Source: Rickettsiales bacterium (lineage in GTDB: Bacteria; Pseudomonadota; Alphaproteobacteria; Rickettsiales; JABIRX01). From it: a stretch of 34,529 nucleotides of DNA. Below the pieces are notes generated by a model. That model was not told where the DNA came from. It did no database searches and worked only from the letters and a program-made list of their open reading frames with translations. Both the position numbers and the translations under genes were made by a program. Positions 5,434-34,529 of the stretch are shown here, piece by piece; the stretch's first letter is position 1, and the number at the start of each line of letters is the position of its first letter. Location of the stretch: NCBI GenBank assembly GCA_018659605.1, contig JABJMA010000071.1, forward strand, positions 1-34,529. Reading direction: 5' to 3'.

Positions 5434-6456
5434 ATGCGAAGATTCTCTTCAATAGTAAAAAAACCTAGTCGTATAACTGATTCTATGTTTTCCAAACCTG
5501 GTGGGCCCTTGAATGGTTACGTAGCTCGAGCAGAAGATAGTAAAAATTATAAAACTCCTCATGATAAATATGGCAAAGGCTGGGTAGGGTTTTGTGCGGA
5601 CTCAAGATTATCCCGTGAGAAAGTAGAGCTAATAATTACAGAATTTACCGGTTTGTCTCATAGTGATAACCTTAGCTTTGCATTTCCAACTACTCATATA
5701 AGTAATGAAGTTTTGGAATCCTATTTAGGCGTTTTGGATATAGCAGATAAGCCAACATTAGCAGCATTTTTAGTACATAGTAATTGTGCAGGTGCTTATT
5801 ATACTTTGAGCAGGAACTCACCTTTAAGTTATGCGTTGGAGGAAGGATTATGGGCAGAAACTTTGCAATATAGTGCTACTAATACAGAGATAGAAATATT
5901 AAGAAATATTGTTAGTAATGGGATTAATAATAAAGAGTCTTTGACAGCGGTAGATTTACAAGTGTTTGAACATTATGCAGAGAAAGTTAAGTCTAAATTT
6001 GATAAGGGCGAGAAGGCGTTACGTCTAGAAATAGAGGCTTATGCAAATGGTTTAGAATTACCAGATGAAAGTAAAAAAGTATATTTAAGTCATTTACGTA
6101 GAAATGCTCAAAGATTAATACAGCATGAAATGTGCAATATAGCTCCAGAGAATTTATTATTTTTCTTTTATCAGCATGGTAATATAGTTCCTTATAATAC
6201 AGTTACTGCATTTGTGGGTAATAAGGAGTCTATGTTAGAGGAAATAGGCAGCAAGCAAATAGCTAAGGATATATCTGATAGTAAAGATACTGTTAAAATC
6301 TTTAATTTACCAAGAGCAGGTGAATTTCAAATAGAGGATAGGGGGCTTAAGGTGTTACAAGGGGTTAAATTATTGCAGCAGGAATCAATGTTAAATAATC
6401 ATTTGGTAGGGATGGTCAAGGGTGGTCCTGAAGGTAGGCAGGAAGCCTCTAGGTAA
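5434..6456 (+). CDS. unrecognised protein, 340 residues
   Basis: I do not recognise this protein. It is a full open frame with codon use like its neighbours, starting at ATG 5434 with a candidate promoter upstream, so it is very likely real. It has no signal peptide or membrane helix. The first 35 residues are basic and polar and the last 20 are low in structure (GGPEGRQEASR end). The middle looks mixed alpha/beta up to about residue 130 and mainly helical from about 130 to 260. Visible landmarks are GKGWVGFCADSR (47-58), HSNCAGAYY (114-122) and FFFYQHGN (243-250). It lies between the divergent lpxJ-waaA operon and purE, and nothing in the context gives a function. A lineage-specific protein or secreted effector is possible but unsupported. 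Confidence 0.75.
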   Translation: MRRFSSIVKKPSRITDSMFSKPGGPLNGYVARAEDSKNYKTPHDKYGKGWVGFCADSRLSREKVELIITEFTGLSHSDNLSFAFPTTHISNEVLESYLGVLDIADKPTLAAFLVHSNCAGAYYTLSRNSPLSYALEEGLWAETLQYSATNTEIEILRNIVSNGINNKESLTAVDLQVFEHYAEKVKSKFDKGEKALRLEIEAYANGLELPDESKKVYLSHLRRNAQRLIQHEMCNIAPENLLFFFYQHGNIVPYNTVTAFVGNKESMLEEIGSKQIAKDISDSKDTVKIFNLPRAGEFQIEDRGLKVLQGVKLLQQESMLNNHLVGMVKGGPEGRQEASR

Positions 6457-16074: not shown

Positions 16075-17223
16075 ATGTCGGAACAAGTATATACAAAATT
16101 ACTAGAGATAACGTCAGCAGCATCTCCTGATTTGTTAAAGAATCACGTTAGAGAGCTACAGCAAGAAGGTCAGTTAAACTCCATATTATCCACCTTTATT
16201 AGCTCTTGGTCTAATAGTGGAAATCAAGATGACATAGAAAATACGCAATATAATTTGAAAGGGATATCGCTTTTGATGAATAATATAGGGTTAGATTCTA
16301 TGGATTCTATTATTGAGGATCTAGAAAAAGGTGGTTTGTCAAAAGATATAGAAAAAATGATTGGCGAATCAGCTACTGATTTTGTTAGTTTGTTTGAGAT
16401 AGAAAAAAATCCGGAAAATGCTTTTGCATTATTACTAATGGTTAACATTGTTGATGTTGAAGCAAAAGCAAAGCTTATGGAAGAAATTAAAAAATTAGAT
16501 ATAGATATTTTCATTAAAAACCCAGAAATTAGTGAGTTCTTCAGATATACATTACAGAATTATATAGATGCTCTAGAGCAAGATCAGGAAAAGAAACTAC
16601 AACATGGTATTGCTTTAGAGTTAATGTCAGAATTACATGAAAAGAGGGATAAAGCTTCTGAGGAAAATTACGTGTCGGTGATAGATCAATTGCTAGAAAG
16701 AATTGCATCTAACAAAATAAGCAATATTGAGCTGAACTTTGCTATGACTACAATGCCGGCTTTAGCTATAATTGTTGCGCAAAATTTCACATCATTTCCT
16801 GAAAATGTAAAAGGTAATTTGGCGGATAATGTTTTTCCTGCTTTAGGAAATACTCCGATAGGCAGATTATGTAACGATATAGTGGAATCTAGATCTGATT
16901 TGAAAGTTGACTTGCCAAATGAGGCTTCAAAGCAAGTAAAGGCTCCTAAAAACAAGGTTGTTGATAAAGCGATAGCAGATGTTAAAGCTATCAAAACGGA
17001 TTTATCTGAAGGTAAAATTAATAAAGTAGAAGCAGCTGGAAAAATTGATGCTGCTATTGCTCCGGTAAAGCCAGAGCTGGTTAAATCTGCGGTGCTTGAT
17101 AAGGGTAGCAAAGGCAGCAAAGATACGGGTGTAAAAGTTTCTACTGTTTCAAATGCGTCTCCAAAGGCTCCTGAAGTTCAAGGGAATATACCAGAGTCTA
17201 AAGGCTCAGAAATTGGCAAATGA
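16075..17223 (+). CDS. unrecognised helical protein with lysine/alanine-rich tail, 382 residues
   Basis: I do not recognise it. Residues 1-280 look like an all-helical bundle with short hydrophobic stretches (for example AFALLLMVNIVDVEAKAK near 116-133 and LNFAMTTMPALAIIVAQNF near 220-238), not convincingly membrane-spanning. From about 285 to the end the chain is low complexity, with Lys, Ala, Val, Pro and Ser (KVDLPNEASKQVKAPKNK, then KGSKGSKDTGVKVSTVS), likely disordered. It starts 19 bases after the 176-residue gene and ends 45 bases before gltX. Ribosome or nucleic-acid association, a scaffold, or a secreted effector are all open. Confidence 0.78.
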   Translation: MSEQVYTKLLEITSAASPDLLKNHVRELQQEGQLNSILSTFISSWSNSGNQDDIENTQYNLKGISLLMNNIGLDSMDSIIEDLEKGGLSKDIEKMIGESATDFVSLFEIEKNPENAFALLLMVNIVDVEAKAKLMEEIKKLDIDIFIKNPEISEFFRYTLQNYIDALEQDQEKKLQHGIALELMSELHEKRDKASEENYVSVIDQLLERIASNKISNIELNFAMTTMPALAIIVAQNFTSFPENVKGNLADNVFPALGNTPIGRLCNDIVESRSDLKVDLPNEASKQVKAPKNKVVDKAIADVKAIKTDLSEGKINKVEAAGKIDAAIAPVKPELVKSAVLDKGSKGSKDTGVKVSTVSNASPKAPEVQGNIPESKGSEIGK

Positions 17224-18700: not shown

Positions 18701-19228
18701 CTAGTTTAGATTAGCGGGTCTGTTTGTAAATTCATCTACTTGTCTAGCAGTGTGATTTCTTATTTCGTAATTTGATATTTCTTTACCGTTATTAATACCT
18801 TCTTTTAAGCCTTGGGCATAAGTTTTAAACCATGGCCCATTTTGGATATGAGTCATTTCGGCTAATATGCTGCCGCTATAATTTGAATATTTGTCAAAAG
18901 TTTCATTAAGGATTTTATTTGTTTCGACATCATCATCTGGAACATAAAGTATTTTCCACGTTAAATCATTCTCTTCCATAACCAACTCAGATGTATAATG
19001 ATCAACCGGGTTATTACCGTATTTTTTATATTCATGGTATATTGAGGTGATTAATGGGCCAAAGCTAAAAGCATGGAATGGCTCAGTTATCAGAATCTGA
19101 TTACGCTCTAGCAGTGATTTGCAATGAGCAAAATAAATTATTTTTTGTAACTTAAGCGGATCTAAATTGATTTTATAAGATCTTGCTATACGAATTATAG
19201 AATTGGCAATTTTAGCTGGACTATACAC
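18701..19228 (-). CDS. DUF4065 (Panacea/SocA-like) domain protein
   Basis: The 175-residue protein has the DUF4065 signature: LKLQKIIYFAHCKSLL (about 26-40) and FHAFSFGPLITSIYHEYKKYG (51-71, shown as the family's F-AW-GPV-Y pattern), then a divergent C-terminal half. The domain occurs in Caulobacter SocA, a proteolytic adaptor for SocB toxin, and in Panacea antitoxins that pair with many toxin types. Here no toxin gene lies on either side: gltX is convergent (37 bases) and hisF is divergent. The start is GTG 19228, supported by a perfect AGGAGG 8 bases upstream, the strongest ribosome site in the window, which suggests high translation. It may be an orphan antitoxin, a solitary adaptor, or a phage/plasmid-derived gene. 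Confidence 0.85.
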   Translation of the reverse strand: MYSPAKIANSIIRIARSYKINLDPLKLQKIIYFAHCKSLLERNQILITEPFHAFSFGPLITSIYHEYKKYGNNPVDHYTSELVMEENDLTWKILYVPDDDVETNKILNETFDKYSNYSGSILAEMTHIQNGPWFKTYAQGLKEGINNGKEISNYEIRNHTARQVDEFTNRPANLN

Positions 19229-25385: not shown

Positions 25386-26981
25386 ATGACCCAGCAGAAT
25401 GAAAATATAAAAAGTCATGAAGAATTTAAAGAATTATTTGCAGTTATAGCAATTAATAATGAGAATTTCGTTACTAAAGCACAAATATTAGATTTCTTTA
25501 ATAGATCTGGTATTTTAGCAAAAGATCAAAGAATTTCTGATATTATAGCAATATTAGAGAATAATAATAATAATGACAAAATTTATTTTGAAGAATTTAT
25601 TGATATAACCAGATCAAATTTTTCTATTTTACAGAAATCAGTAAATGAGCAGTTAATAATTCCTGAATTTGAAACATTTAAGAAAGAGATAACAAAGATT
25701 TTTAAAAAAGTAAAAGATAACAAATCTGGTAATGTTGCTAGCTACATACCGCAGCTTGCTAGAGTTTGCCCAGATAAGTATGCAATGAGTATTTGTACTA
25801 TTGATGGTCAAAAGTTTAATATAGGTGATAGCGATGAACATTTCTGCATACAATCGGTCTGTAAACCAATTAATTATTGTATAGCCCTTGAGCTAAATGG
25901 TGAGGATAAGGTTCATAACCATATAGGTAGAGAGCCAAGTGGAAGAGGTTTTAATGAAATTACTTTAAATAGGCGTAGCCTACCTCATAATCCAATGATT
26001 AATGCTGGAGCAATAATGTCCTGTTCTTTAATTAACCCTAAGGATAGTTTGGCTGATCGGTTTGATAAAGTTATGTCATATTGGCAGGATTTATCAGGTA
26101 GTATTAAGCCTGGTTACAATAATTCAGTATATCATTCTGAGAAAGCAACTGCAGATAGAAATTTTGCTTTAGCTTACTTTATGAAAGAGCTAAAATCCTT
26201 TCCTGAAGGAGTGAATCTATATGAAACATTAGATTTCTATTTTCAATGCTGCTCTATTGAAGTTAACACAAATTCAATGTCAAACATTGCTGCAACTCTA
26301 GCTAATTCTGGTATTTGTCCAAATACGGATAAAAAAGTATTTTCTCCAGAAACTGTTAAACATTGCCTGTCATTAATGTATTCATGTGGAATGTATGATT
26401 TTTCTGGTGAATTTGCTTTTTCAGTTGGTATTCCTGCTAAGTCAGGAGTTGCAGGAGGACTAATGATAGTTGTTCCAAATTTAATGGGAATTGCAGTTTG
26501 GTCACCGAGATTGGATGAAATGGGCAATACAGTTAGAGGTGTAGAATTTTGTAAAGAGCTTGTAAAAACATTTAATTTTCATAATTATGATAGTTTAATT
26601 GGGGCCTCACAAAAAATAGATCCACGTATTAAGAGTAATAACAAATATATTAATCAGATTTTCTCATTCATTTTTGCTGCAAGTCAGGGAGATTTAAAAG
26701 AAGTAAAACATCTAATTGCTCATGGGGCTGATATTAATAGTTGTGATTATGATGGTAGAACAGCAATACATCTGGCCTCAGCTGAAGGTGAAATAGATCT
26801 TGTGAAGTTTTTAATAGCTAATAATGTTAATATTAGTGTTAAAGATCGCTGGGGCAATACTCCTTTGGATGATGCAAAAGCTAATAACCATACAGAAGTT
26901 ATAGCAATATTAGAATCTATTCTTGGTAAGAATAAGAAGGATGGAGCCCTAGTTAATAAAGGTAAGAAAGTTGCAGCTTGA
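25386..26981 (+). CDS. glutaminase with EF-hand-like N-terminus and C-terminal ankyrin repeats
   Basis: The enzyme hydrolyses glutamine to glutamate and ammonia by a serine mechanism. The 531 residues fall in three parts. Residues 10-110 are helical with an EF-hand-like segment (NENFVTKAQILDFF, NNNDKIYFEEFID). Residues 115-400 are the glutaminase domain: CIQSVCKP with Ser157 and Lys160, GREPSGRGFN, PHNPMINAGAI and AKSGVAGG. Residues 422-515 are ankyrin repeats with DYDGRTAIHLASAEG and KDRWGNTPLDDA. Typical bacterial glutaminases are about 310 residues and lack the flanks; this order is that of animal GLS/GLS2, including the DYD-RTA and KDRW-NTP wording. It follows glnA by 73 bases. A purely metabolic enzyme and a host-directed one are both possible; no signal peptide is seen. 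Confidence 0.95.
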   Translation: MTQQNENIKSHEEFKELFAVIAINNENFVTKAQILDFFNRSGILAKDQRISDIIAILENNNNNDKIYFEEFIDITRSNFSILQKSVNEQLIIPEFETFKKEITKIFKKVKDNKSGNVASYIPQLARVCPDKYAMSICTIDGQKFNIGDSDEHFCIQSVCKPINYCIALELNGEDKVHNHIGREPSGRGFNEITLNRRSLPHNPMINAGAIMSCSLINPKDSLADRFDKVMSYWQDLSGSIKPGYNNSVYHSEKATADRNFALAYFMKELKSFPEGVNLYETLDFYFQCCSIEVNTNSMSNIAATLANSGICPNTDKKVFSPETVKHCLSLMYSCGMYDFSGEFAFSVGIPAKSGVAGGLMIVVPNLMGIAVWSPRLDEMGNTVRGVEFCKELVKTFNFHNYDSLIGASQKIDPRIKSNNKYINQIFSFIFAASQGDLKEVKHLIAHGADINSCDYDGRTAIHLASAEGEIDLVKFLIANNVNISVKDRWGNTPLDDAKANNHTEVIAILESILGKNKKDGALVNKGKKVAA

Positions 26982-30759: not shown

Positions 30760-30850
30760 TTAAATCAAATTATTACAGGATCACCCTATAGGTGTTTTGT
30801 TTTAGAGGGCAAGGGATAAATTAAAGATCTGAGAGCGCTAGAGCTAAAAT

Positions 30851-30902
30851 AATTAAGTATACTGTCCCCAGATCTTAATTAAGTATACTGTCCCCAGATC
30901 TT
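30851..30902. repeat. 26-bp exact tandem pair (repeat family copies 1 and 2)
   Basis: Two identical 26-base units, 30851-30876 and 30877-30902, begin AATTAAGTATACTGTCCCC and end AGATCTT. Where copies join, AGATCTTAATTAAG is formed. The ATACTG-YCYC-GATCTT core is shared with the sites at 31014 and 33461. The GGGGACAGTATACTT wording on the other strand resembles tags I recall beside IS200-type (REP-associated) transposase genes, but no transposase is present. The wider interval 30760-31142 has no gene; besides these repeats only AT-rich sequence is seen. Confidence 0.85.
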
Positions 30903-31013
30903 ATTTAGTTAGAGGTTATTTGTTTCACAGGTAATTTTTCTATTCGTTAGATGCATCTTATGATAGAGCTTAAAACTAATAGAGTTTTGAGTCTTCAAAC
31001 ATCAGGGTCTCAG

Positions 31014-31036
31014 AATAATTAGGTATATTGCCTCGG
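31014..31036. repeat. left 23-bp flanking repeat of the 751-residue gene
   Basis: The site begins AATAATTAGGTATATTGCCT and ends CGG at 31036. It matches 33461-33483 at 21 of 23 positions in direct orientation and shares the ATAcTG-CcTCgG core with the tandem pair at 30851. Partial similarity continues upstream (CAGGGTCTCAG here, CAGGTCCAAGG at the right copy). Confidence 0.75.
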
Positions 31037-31142
31037 TTATTACAGCTTGTCGATATGGTTTTTTAGTATAATTGAGTGGTGGCGTTAGTTTATCAAGATG
31101 ATAATACTGGCGTATAACACTATATTAAGAGGAGAGTTGTTT

Positions 31143-33398
31143 ATGTATCTGACCGAGGCGCAAATCCTTAATTTGGAAGTAAAATTTACTGAATTAAGTG
31201 AGAGATATCCGAGTTATCGTGACAATGGATTACTTGAAGTTATTAAGGGTGTAATTCAGACTTTGGATTACCGAACTTTGCCGAATAGTGAGCAAGGTAT
31301 TTTGAGTGTTGCTGCGCGAGGTTTTTTATCAAATCATTTTCAGGTTAATCTAAATCAGCATCCTTCTATAGTAGGGTTTTTGGTTGATACATTGTATGCG
31401 GAGATATTAGGTAAGGCTGAGTTAAATGCTTTTCGGAAGCAATTATCAAATCCTGTGACTTTTGAAAAACTATTGCTGGAGCGGGTGTTTTTTGATAAAG
31501 AGTTATTTGCAGATGTAGATAAATTAGATGGCTTATTAAGCGGGTTTGTTGATTTGCAAAGGCTACAAAGGCAGATTCCAGAAGCCAAAATTGATAATGA
31601 TGCTAGAATTTTAAACCAGATTATATTTTTCTTCGGTGCACCATTTGATTTCTATATCAATTCCGCTGCTAGAGAGTCTGATGATGGACATTTAAGGGGT
31701 GTAGCTCAAGCCGTTCAGCTTTGTTATGATAAAATGATTAGCGGGGATTTTAATATAGGTGATATTGTTGAAGATATTTTATTCTGGCCGGAAAACTTGC
31801 CTAACTCACTGAATAGTTTTTTTGACAAACTTGCAGCTGATGCCGGCTTTGGTTTGAGTGCGCAAGATCAGAGAAAAATATCTGGATTTATGAACCATCT
31901 TAAAGACATTCTCATAGCATATTATCCAGAACATCCTTCGCCTTTTGTATTATTAAAACCGCGTTATGCAGAAAATCTAGCAAGTGAGAGCGATCTTCTG
32001 CTAATATGGCCAGCGGTAGCGGAATTAAAGCAAGCTGAGGCGAAGGCATCAAGCGGATGCGATAACCAGAAAGCCTTGAATATGCCGGCACAGAGACCTC
32101 AATATTTTTCTAAGAAAGAACTTAAGTTTATGGCCGTAACGGAAAAACTATCCAGTCACCTCTCTAAAGAGTGGCAGTTATTATCAATAGAGCTTCTAAA
32201 TATTTATAGTAAGCAACTCGCTATTCCGGAGACGCGGGAAATTTTTGGCAAATTGCCGGTTATAGGTTTTACAATAGAGCTATTCTTGCGTCATTATAAA
32301 ATTGGGAATGGAGAGAGGTTATATAGGACATTTAATATCCAATTAGATAAAATTTTAGCAATAGTTGGGGAACTGCATATAATTAATGGTGGCAAAGATC
32401 TTCTGGGGATTCAGACATATGCTAGTAGATTGCAACAAGAGATAAAAGGTCTCAAAACTAAAAGGCAAATCAATGATAAGGTTGCGGCATATTTTCGATC
32501 AGGGCTGCATGATCGAATAATAAATGCTATCGAACATCACTTAAAGCCTTTTGCTAGAGTAATAGCTGAGCATGCTCCTTATACCATAATAGGAGGAGAG
32601 GGTGGTAGAGGAGGATTGTTATCAGAGATAGATGTCGTGATTCGCAAAACGTCTGAGATTTCTAATCATTTTAAACAGAGGTACCAGGAGGTTAGTGATG
32701 AGATCGTAGCAAGGCAAGAGCATGAAGAATTAATCGAGCTAACAAGGCAAGCTGAATACTCGGCTAAACTGGATAAAGAAGCGGCAGAACGACAAAAGGT
32801 TTTTGCTGAAATGGCGGCTAAGAAAGAGGCGGCAAAACAGCAAAGTGAGATAATATCATATGGTGAGCAAAGCTTGGGTAATGGAGGATTAGTCGAGCTT
32901 CAGTGGGAACTAAAAGGTGATCAAACAAGAGCTGACACTACTTATAAGCAAGACAGTTACAGAGTCGTCATAACTAAAAAGCTTTATGACTTGATTAGTG
33001 ATGCTAAGAACAGCTTATCTCAGGACATTAAAGATGCTGTGGAATCAGGTTTTATACCAACCGTAGGTCGGGGAAAATCTGGAGTTAAGCCAATGGATAA
33101 TGGCGAAGTAGTGGAAGGCTATGTGGTGCTTGAGGTAAAGCTCAAAGGCTCTAAACCGATTACTAATTTCTTAGGAAATTCTTCTGTTACTATAGGTGAT
33201 ATTCGGCTGTGTGGGGTTTTAAAGGATGGAGTTTTCTTAATTAGCGAGATATCTCAACATGGGAAGAATAATGTTGATCTCGGCAATAATGTTCAGCGCA
33301 TCAAAGGAAATATCATGAATGGATCCATAGAGATAAAGCTAGCCGATACGGAAAGATCGGCGACGGAATTATCAAGTGTTGCTAGTTACGGAAGATAA
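31143..33398 (+). CDS. unrecognised large multidomain protein, 751 residues
   Basis: I do not recognise this protein. I chose ATG 31143, preceded by AAGAGGAGAG at good spacing, over ATG 31098, which has no ribosome site. There is no signal peptide or membrane helix. Residues 1-310 and 330-505 look mainly helical, joined by a polar linker. Residues about 509-566 are a charged coiled coil (EVSDEIVARQEHEELIELTR onward). A glycine-rich loop (IIGGEGGRGGLLSEID) precedes it. The last 170 residues form a separate alpha/beta region: strand SYRVVIT near 604, two helices, then YVVLEVKLKG and the hairpin GDIRLCGVLKDGVFLISEIS near 685. That order recalls RelE/BECR-type nuclease toxins, an inference without motif proof. 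The gene is alone and bounded by direct repeats. Confidence 0.82.
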   Translation: MYLTEAQILNLEVKFTELSERYPSYRDNGLLEVIKGVIQTLDYRTLPNSEQGILSVAARGFLSNHFQVNLNQHPSIVGFLVDTLYAEILGKAELNAFRKQLSNPVTFEKLLLERVFFDKELFADVDKLDGLLSGFVDLQRLQRQIPEAKIDNDARILNQIIFFFGAPFDFYINSAARESDDGHLRGVAQAVQLCYDKMISGDFNIGDIVEDILFWPENLPNSLNSFFDKLAADAGFGLSAQDQRKISGFMNHLKDILIAYYPEHPSPFVLLKPRYAENLASESDLLLIWPAVAELKQAEAKASSGCDNQKALNMPAQRPQYFSKKELKFMAVTEKLSSHLSKEWQLLSIELLNIYSKQLAIPETREIFGKLPVIGFTIELFLRHYKIGNGERLYRTFNIQLDKILAIVGELHIINGGKDLLGIQTYASRLQQEIKGLKTKRQINDKVAAYFRSGLHDRIINAIEHHLKPFARVIAEHAPYTIIGGEGGRGGLLSEIDVVIRKTSEISNHFKQRYQEVSDEIVARQEHEELIELTRQAEYSAKLDKEAAERQKVFAEMAAKKEAAKQQSEIISYGEQSLGNGGLVELQWELKGDQTRADTTYKQDSYRVVITKKLYDLISDAKNSLSQDIKDAVESGFIPTVGRGKSGVKPMDNGEVVEGYVVLEVKLKGSKPITNFLGNSSVTIGDIRLCGVLKDGVFLISEISQHGKNNVDLGNNVQRIKGNIMNGSIEIKLADTERSATELSSVASYGR

Positions 33399-33460
33399 GT
33401 TGGTTGTTTTTGAAAGATCTAGCTAATAGGATTTTGGATCCCCAAGAACCAGGTCCAAGG

Positions 33461-33483
33461 AATAATTAGGCATACTGCCTCGG
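33461..33483. repeat. right 23-bp flanking repeat of the 751-residue gene
   Basis: The site begins AATAATTAGGCATACTGCCT and ends CGG at 33483, followed by ATCTTAGAGAGG, so it shares the GATCTTA end with the tandem pair at 30851-30902. It is the direct-orientation partner of 31014-31036 (two mismatches). The rest of 33399-33574 shows no gene. Confidence 0.75.
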
Positions 33484-33574
33484 ATCTTAGAGAGGGTGAC
33501 AGTTCTTAGCTGATAAATCTAAGGATATGGAAGGTAATTTTATGTCAAGATTTGAGGCCTTCTAAGCAGGGAGT

Positions 33575-34529
33575 TTATATCCTCTCTGCCTCTGGAGTAA
33601 AAATGCTCTCAAAAACCTTCATTTGCTTAAATGTAAAAGTAGCAGAAACCATAATTCTTTCACCTTCATTTTTTACATCAACATTTTTGCCATTTTGATA
33701 AATCCATGCAAGTTTTTCACCTTCTGAAACATGAAGATCAAGGTTAATTACAAGATCTTTTTCATCAAAAAAATCATCTATTTTTTTTAATAAGCTTTCA
33801 ATATTATACTCTGTTTTTGCAGAAATCTTTATGGAGTTAGCCTCAGGTGAATCAGCCGTGGTAGAACCGCCCTCAGGTGAGTCACCCTTGGGCGCCTCAT
33901 TTGATTCATTCAAACTATCTTGCTTGAATAAATCTATTTTATTATGAACCTCATATATATTGTCTTCTCTAGTATTATCATCAAGCAAATCTTTTAACAC
34001 TTTTAAAACATCAACTTTCTGCATCTCACTGTCAGGAGATGAAATATCTCGTATATGCAAAATTAAATCTGCATCAACCACTTCTTCTAATGTAGCTCGA
34101 AATGAAGCTATTAGCTCGGTTGGAAGTTTAGAGATAAAGCCCACTGTATCAGAAAGTATAATTTTACGTTTTGAAGGCAAAACAACTTCTCTCATGGTAG
34201 GGTCTAATGTCGCAAACAAGGCATCTTCAGCATAAACATCAGCACCTGTTAACTTGTTAAATAAGGTTGATTTACCAGCATTTGTGTAGCCAATCAGAGC
34301 AACTATAGGATAAGGAATTTTGGCTCTGGTACTTCTATGTAAACCTCGGGTTTTTTTAACAGCTTCAAGTTGACGTTTAATTTTAACTATATCTTCACTT
34401 ATCATCCTACGGTCTGATTCAATCTGTCTCTCACCAGGGCCGCCCATAAAACCTCTACCACCACGTTGACGTTCTAAATGAGTCCAGCTTCTAACCAAGC
34501 GTGACTTTTGATAAGTTAAATGTGCAAGC
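33575..34529 (-). CDS. hflX: GTPase HflX, N-terminus beyond window
   Basis: HflX is a ribosome-binding GTPase that splits stalled 70S ribosomes under stress. The reading frame continues to the window edge (LAHLTYQKSRLVRSWTHLER), so the first roughly 100 or more residues are outside. Visible parts are the HflX hallmark ERQRGGRGFMGGPGERQIE with the coiled SDRRMISEDIVKIKRQLE, the P-loop GYTNAGKST, switch region FATLDPTMREV, DTVGFISKLP and NKIDL (G4). Between G4 and the ISAKT G5 block is a low-complexity insert of about 25 residues (SNEAPKGDSPEGGSTTADSP) not typical of the family. The TTG at 34498 is an internal leucine, not the start. Confidence 0.96.
   Translation of the reverse strand, partial: LAHLTYQKSRLVRSWTHLERQRGGRGFMGGPGERQIESDRRMISEDIVKIKRQLEAVKKTRGLHRSTRAKIPYPIVALIGYTNAGKSTLFNKLTGADVYAEDALFATLDPTMREVVLPSKRKIILSDTVGFISKLPTELIASFRATLEEVVDADLILHIRDISSPDSEMQKVDVLKVLKDLLDDNTREDNIYEVHNKIDLFKQDSLNESNEAPKGDSPEGGSTTADSPEANSIKISAKTEYNIESLLKKIDDFFDEKDLVINLDLHVSEGEKLAWIYQNGKNVDVKNEGERIMVSATFTFKQMKVFESIFTPEAERI

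Follow-up and report, generated by a model that had tools for sequence, protein, structure and literature searches.

A rare, repeat-framed orphan gene of a Rickettsiales bacterium and the predicted RelE/HigB-like tip of its product

The closest described relatives of the protein considered here, by predicted fold, are the RelE-type toxins of the HigB/Gp49 and YoeB branch and some larger proteins that bear a comparable domain. Cami1, a type III CRISPR effector, joins a CARF sensor to a RelE-like domain. Among polymorphic toxins, classical RelE was recorded as Tox-RelE in a single case in a survey of 2012 (PMC3482391). A survey of multidomain BECR proteins states that many proteins were omitted either because no antitoxin was found or because their members were too few (PMC11980606). 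The present text concerns an orphan gene in a contig of 34,529 nucleotides (hereafter the window) from a Rickettsiales bacterium (GCA_018659605.1, JABJMA010000071.1). This gene is real, rare, repeat-framed and lineage-restricted, and for the C-terminal 135 residues of its product prediction gives, at modest confidence, the ribonuclease fold of RelE, HigB and YoeB (BECR).

Architecture and predicted fold of the protein

The gene and the parts of its product are the following:

31143..33398, + strand: orphan gene encoding 751 residues, with no known family at trusted score (sequence and family searches)
31130..31134, + strand: AGGAG, 8 nt upstream of the ATG, a likely ribosome-binding site, its function presumed from the sequence
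31143..32612, + strand: residues 1-490, a body predicted to be helical, in large part at low confidence (secondary structure prediction)
32616..32813, + strand: residues 492-557, one long predicted helix, a coiled-coil-like stalk (secondary structure prediction)
32943..33347, + strand: residues 601-735, C-terminal alpha/beta tip with a predicted RelE/HigB-like (BECR) fold and the candidate active-site residues K649, E664, K666, R688 and H706 (models, with a putative residue mapping)

Predicted secondary structure, with helices up to about residue 477, a long helix at 492-557 and an alpha/beta region at 583-725, agrees with the helical regions, long coiled coil and small alpha/beta C-terminal domain that a first-pass annotation, made from the sequence alone, had described for an unrecognised gene of 751 residues. 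That gene is indeed present, and no family claims it at trusted score.

The same annotation had suggested a RelE/BECR-like tip and proposed structure prediction as a check, and two predicted models return a BECR fold at modest confidence. In a structure search with the tip model, the 24 best VIA matches all fall in one superfamily (RelE/ParE), and ParE chains and Cami1 chains (8phj, 8phb) are among the structural matches; Foldseek ranks CorA at the top for the tip. That superfamily is also the one obtained for the tip from the full-length model; the two predictions share method and sequences and so are not independent. The models have low pLDDT and were built on 4-5 sequences only. Both predict the fold order given in PMC11980606, save for an additional hairpin that follows strand 2. 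A BECR ribonuclease tip is likely but unproven; the models and the placing of invariant residues speak for it and sequence profiles against it.

The tip is common to all four full-length members of the family. Its identity to the orphan protein (P0001) is 57-60% in the three full-length relatives, against 29-52% for the other segments; among these relatives themselves, the tip is 79-90% identical and is not the best conserved part. Five residues, K649, E664, K666, R688 and H706, are invariant in the four homologues, out of 31 invariant polar or catalytic-type residues in 570-735. As three of the four homologues are closely related, this invariance in effect compares two lineages. Predicted strand 660-666 holds E664 and K666, strand 687-694 holds R688, and H706 comes after strand 697-705, while K649 lies ahead of strand 2, where the prediction is least certain.

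According to PMC2807027, E56, R67, R71 and H86 of RNase Sa2 superpose on K52, K54, R61 and R81 of RelE. One section of PMC12620021 gives K58, E66, R68, R77 and K95 of HigB1 and E46, R65 and H83 of YoeB as mRNA-interacting or essential, K95 being matched differently in another section of the same paper. The R688-H706 span is 18 residues, by numbering the same as R65-H83 in YoeB and R77-K95 in HigB1; the corresponding span is 20 in Escherichia coli RelE (R61-R81) and Mycobacterium tuberculosis RelE1 (R65-R85). For Gp49, 30 loci were reduced to 24 proteins by excluding L065, L067, L069, L073 and L079 before alignment (partial, with an internal stop or very short) and L080 afterwards (not a Gp49 reading). 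A simple pattern, with spans of 16-22 permitted and the first match retained, caught 17 of these 24, L058 among them with a doubtful E residue, and gave spans of 18-19; the other 7 had no fit. The gap between strands 2 and 3 is 22 residues here versus 8-10 in 16 of those 17 Gp49 proteins, owing to the predicted inserted hairpin. Judged from topology and spacing, the five invariant residues would sit where RelE/HigB/YoeB toxins keep RNA-contacting residues.

With the HigB/Gp49 and YoeB branch, the tip shares the predicted fold order, the distance of 18 residues between the arginine of strand 3 and the residue that follows strand 4, and the series K, E-x-[KR], R and final H or K, but it differs by a sequence that profiles do not recognise, by the hairpin between strands 2 and 3, by some 600 fused residues and by having no adjacent antitoxin. 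As in Cami1, the RelE-like domain forms the C-terminal portion of one larger protein, whereas the orphan protein has no CARF-like Pfam match and its body is predicted to be helical. Tox-RelE polymorphic toxins likewise carry a RelE-like tip on a larger protein; unlike them, the orphan protein gives no Pfam match to RHS or HINT, and no immunity gene adjoins its own. Like the CRCT/A proteins, it is large, ends in a nuclease-like tip and likely belongs to the same bacterial order, but Pfam shows no haemagglutinin or Rhs repeats in it, and its tip is conserved, not swapped, among the four full-length members. CRCT/A proteins and polymorphic toxins differ by their adjacent antidote or immunity gene, the neighbours here being a beta-barrel protein gene and hflX, and a type II toxin-antitoxin module by the antitoxin gene next to its toxin. 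The protein is therefore not assigned to Gp49 or RelE, to the toxin-antitoxin systems or to CRCT/A, since defining features of these groups failed. Among the matches listed in a literature search, no description of this protein family or of a RelE-tipped effector in Rickettsiales appeared in the titles and abstract openings.

Rarity of the gene and its surroundings

Among about 5.8 billion proteins, three full-length relatives were found (P0002-P0004), of 734-771 residues, with 46-48% identity across 99-100% of the length. This search needs shared 5-residue words, and about 8,000 candidates were scored in each of runs 1 and 2 and 461 in run 3; runs 2 and 3 added no relatives. A profile run over 343 genomes of the order recovered the gene itself, a 412-residue piece in genome G314 and one chance-level match, in G033 (E 0.0054), which falls in a PAS/GGDEF open reading frame. 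The G314 piece aligns to residues 1 to about 447, its tip being lost at the contig end. Searching the 343 genomes again with this piece added only three weak matches with stops, in G247, G253 and G256 (E 0.002-0.005); these are taken as chance, with three internal stops, and the one inspected runs antisense to an Hda-like open reading frame.

The presence of the same gene at the same place in all relatives is thereby excluded, since among the 342 others from the order just one genome has it, in contig-truncated form. It was not found in one genome of the same genus (85% complete) nor in one of the same family (84% complete). Over 385 genomes of the class, the profile returned the gene itself and three matches at E about 0.005, in G599, G603 and G676 (E 0.005-0.006), which are taken as chance. 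Viral contigs, plasmids and phages yielded no relatives. Against named genome contigs, the profile had no match and the G314 piece matched KTt_bin-0923 alone, the metagenome-assembled genome of an uncultured Alphaproteobacteria bacterium, of which a 3433-base contig matches the G314 contig.

The start codon is the ATG at 31143, in the same alignment column as the start of the three homologues; an alternative ATG upstream, at 31098 in the same open frame, would give 766 residues. The scan of the neighbours and of open reading frames of at least 25 residues between them revealed no adjacent antitoxin-like gene. Outside the orphan gene, the only such frames between the flanking genes encode 29 residues (30909-30998) and 48 residues overlapping hflX (33552-33698), and antisense frames inside the gene reach 77 residues. 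Promoter-like sites numbered 9 versus 9.1 in shuffles, and terminator-like sites 3 versus 1.3.

In a comparison of 29 open reading frames of the window, the orphan gene ranks fourth in GC (0.385) and fourth in third-position GC (0.319), and its fit to the codon use of the others is the second lowest of the 29. This composition mildly favours a foreign origin or a recent acquisition.

The window is contig C46 of an assembly of 1.28 Mb (78 contigs, 86.7% complete). It begins with a partial 16S rRNA gene, and no tRNA gene was found in it. Its end (34470-34529) is exactly the first 60 bases of contig C55, inside hflX, which reads across the join in one frame of 450 residues; this overlap makes the assembly break bridgeable.

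Elsewhere in the window, an antitoxin-like gene with a SocA/Panacea domain (18701-19228; PF13274, E 1.5e-13) lies 12 kb from the orphan gene, and any link between the two would be speculation. One gene at 25386-26981 combines EF-hand-like, glutaminase and ankyrin domains, in the order of animal glutaminases. Two others, at 5434-6456 and 16075-17223 (340 and 382 residues), have no Pfam match at E 0.001.

Direct repeats around the gene and in the genome

The framing repeats and a tandem pair to their left are:

30976..31045, + strand: left 70-nt direct repeat, with its 24-nt core at 31013-31036 (sequence comparison, shuffles)
33423..33492, + strand: right 70-nt direct repeat, with its 24-nt core at 33460-33483 (sequence comparison, shuffles)
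30850..30901, + strand: tandem pair of identical 26-nt repeats (30850-30875 and 30876-30901), with core AATTAAGTATACTGTCCCC

The 23-bp repeats (21 of 23 identical) noticed at first reading are thus present and longer than supposed, a 24-nt core (22 of 24 identical) lying inside a 70-nt pair at 73% identity; the tandem pair reported on the left consists of two identical 26-mers. The best ungapped score between the flanks is 32, against a maximum of 15 over 500 dinucleotide shuffles, and with as many as 3 mismatches allowed, the window holds 4 motif matches, where 100 shuffles averaged 0.36. The segment bounded by the 70-nt pair contains a single gene.

Across the genome, the core with at most one mismatch occurs in 8 copies: 4 in the window, 2 at the start of C55 and 2 in C23. 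Two further copies with two mismatches are as many as a reversed control pattern gave in all. On the C46-C55 join, a stretch of about 6.1 kb, from 30851 to about 36927, accounts for 6 of the 8 good copies. The exact 17-base form of the repeat has 6 copies here and none in the 342 genomes compared from the rest of the order, so that among all of these it is private to the present one. No match to the repeat was found in viral contigs and phages; a match on a plasmid of Candidatus Thiodictyon syntrophicum (E 4-6) was set aside as close to chance level; it coincides with no gene, and no transposase is annotated in its immediate vicinity. The two copies in C23 (10155-10295) are inverted, about 120 nt apart, and stand beside two ankyrin-repeat genes.

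Adjoining the window end, a second segment (C55:542-2498) is bracketed by 68-nt direct repeats (66 of 68 identical) whose copies are 1.9 kb apart, around a DUF167 gene and a radical-SAM gene. Within each 68-nt repeat, the terminal 38 nt of a gloB-like gene (36 of them identical) are joined by two bases to the motif. Two adjoining segments are thus framed by direct repeats that include flanking sequence, and bracketing with a duplicated gene end resembles integration at a gene end, or segmental duplication. An empty-site comparison with two other genomes (G001 and G002) found no hflX in either, the best GTPase matches being 30% identical, and YdjM in G002 only, in a different setting.

The initial idea of an accessory mobile cassette is supported in its first half: the gene was not found in 341 of 342 other genomes of the order, its codon use is deviant and the repeat is private. 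Direct repeats lie at both ends of the segment, but its mobility is plausible only, as no integrase or transposase was found in it or among the genes beside the orphan gene.

Candidate roles of the protein and of the repeats

The bacterium is likely host-dwelling. Its genome holds three VirB4-family matches, one of the VirB4 genes adjoining a VirB3 gene (PF05101, E 1.5e-24); with the small size and AT-richness of the genome, these would suggest Rickettsiales. A host-directed effector is the best of several readings. In its full form, which is put forward tentatively as possible rather than probable, the protein would be an antidote-free effector exported by type IV secretion, and its RelE/HigB/YoeB-like tip would cut RNA inside the host cell. 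H706 would then act as the general acid, as H83 does in YoeB, with K649, E664, K666 and R688 in the places of K58, E66, R68 and R77 of HigB1, and the direct repeats may be scars of the acquisition or duplication of the gene.

Two results weigh against the predicted fold. No trusted family match was obtained for any of the four proteins in Pfam, PHROGs, NCBIfam, PADLOC or PDB sequences. P0001 has no Pfam family at E up to 1, and the other rows seen are weak and not trusted: UPF0270 at the tip end of two homologues (E 0.031 and 0.16), Cap4_nuclease in the body of a third (E 0.083), phrog_492 on the P0004 stalk (E 0.00022) and a LysR model on the G314 piece (E 0.0027). Moreover, a profile-profile check of the kind proposed at the outset, run against Gp49, was not significant, hhalign scoring the tip against the 24 proteins at 12.0 versus up to 20.9 for column-shuffled tips (100 trials); the best local alignment nevertheless falls in the expected strand-2 register. 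This lack of sequence support, together with the low pLDDT, the few sequences behind the models and the first rank of CorA, is what an unrelated alpha/beta fold in an ordinary lineage-specific gene would produce, the RelE match being an artefact of weak models. Such an explanation appears unlikely, as the 24 best VIA matches keep to one superfamily that the full-length model also gives, albeit from a prediction that is not independent. A tip that keeps the fold and not the ribonuclease activity, binding a protein or nucleic acid partner as ParE does within a host- or cell-structure-binding factor, would fit both the ParE chains among the matches and a sequence outside every RNase family searched; it is distinctly unlikely given that the five invariant residues would occupy RNA-contacting or essential places of HigB1 and YoeB. 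The tip could also serve in the bacterium's own cell, as a self-gated ribonuclease of abortive infection whose body senses invasion and releases the tip, like Cami1. Gating by the body would explain the missing antitoxin, the Cami1 chains are among the structural matches, and sporadic distribution and repeat framing suit a defence gene. Such a role is nonetheless rather unlikely, for there is no PADLOC match, no recognised sensor domain in the body and no relative among the viruses, phages and plasmids searched.

The repeats may also have nothing to do with the arrival of the gene, a reading compatible with any role of the protein. Local spread of a short interspersed element through intergenic gaps would account for the eight good copies, some in inverted or tandem pairs without cargo, and for the lack of an integrase adjoining the gene. 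This is a serious possibility, if somewhat on the improbable side, since flanking sequence that clean hopping would leave behind goes with the repeats: 37 nt to the left of the core at the orphan gene and, at C55, the terminal 38 nt of the gloB-like gene. At the other extreme, the locus might belong to a site-specific gene-capture system of a Rickettsiales-type symbiont, in which 70-nt attachment-like repeats copy the end of the neighbouring gene and bracket cargo that includes a new, antidote-free, YoeB/HigB-like ribonuclease effector directed at host translation; so complete a scheme is very unlikely.

If the host-directed effector proposal is true, the protein would represent a new and very rare family among the RNA-cutting effectors of intracellular bacteria, and a RelE-type tip with no adjacent antidote would bear on how the producing cell itself is spared. 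The idea can be tested directly through the five named residues. With their two adjacent bracketed segments and no integrase in sight, the private repeats would offer a case for studying gene gain in small symbiont genomes.
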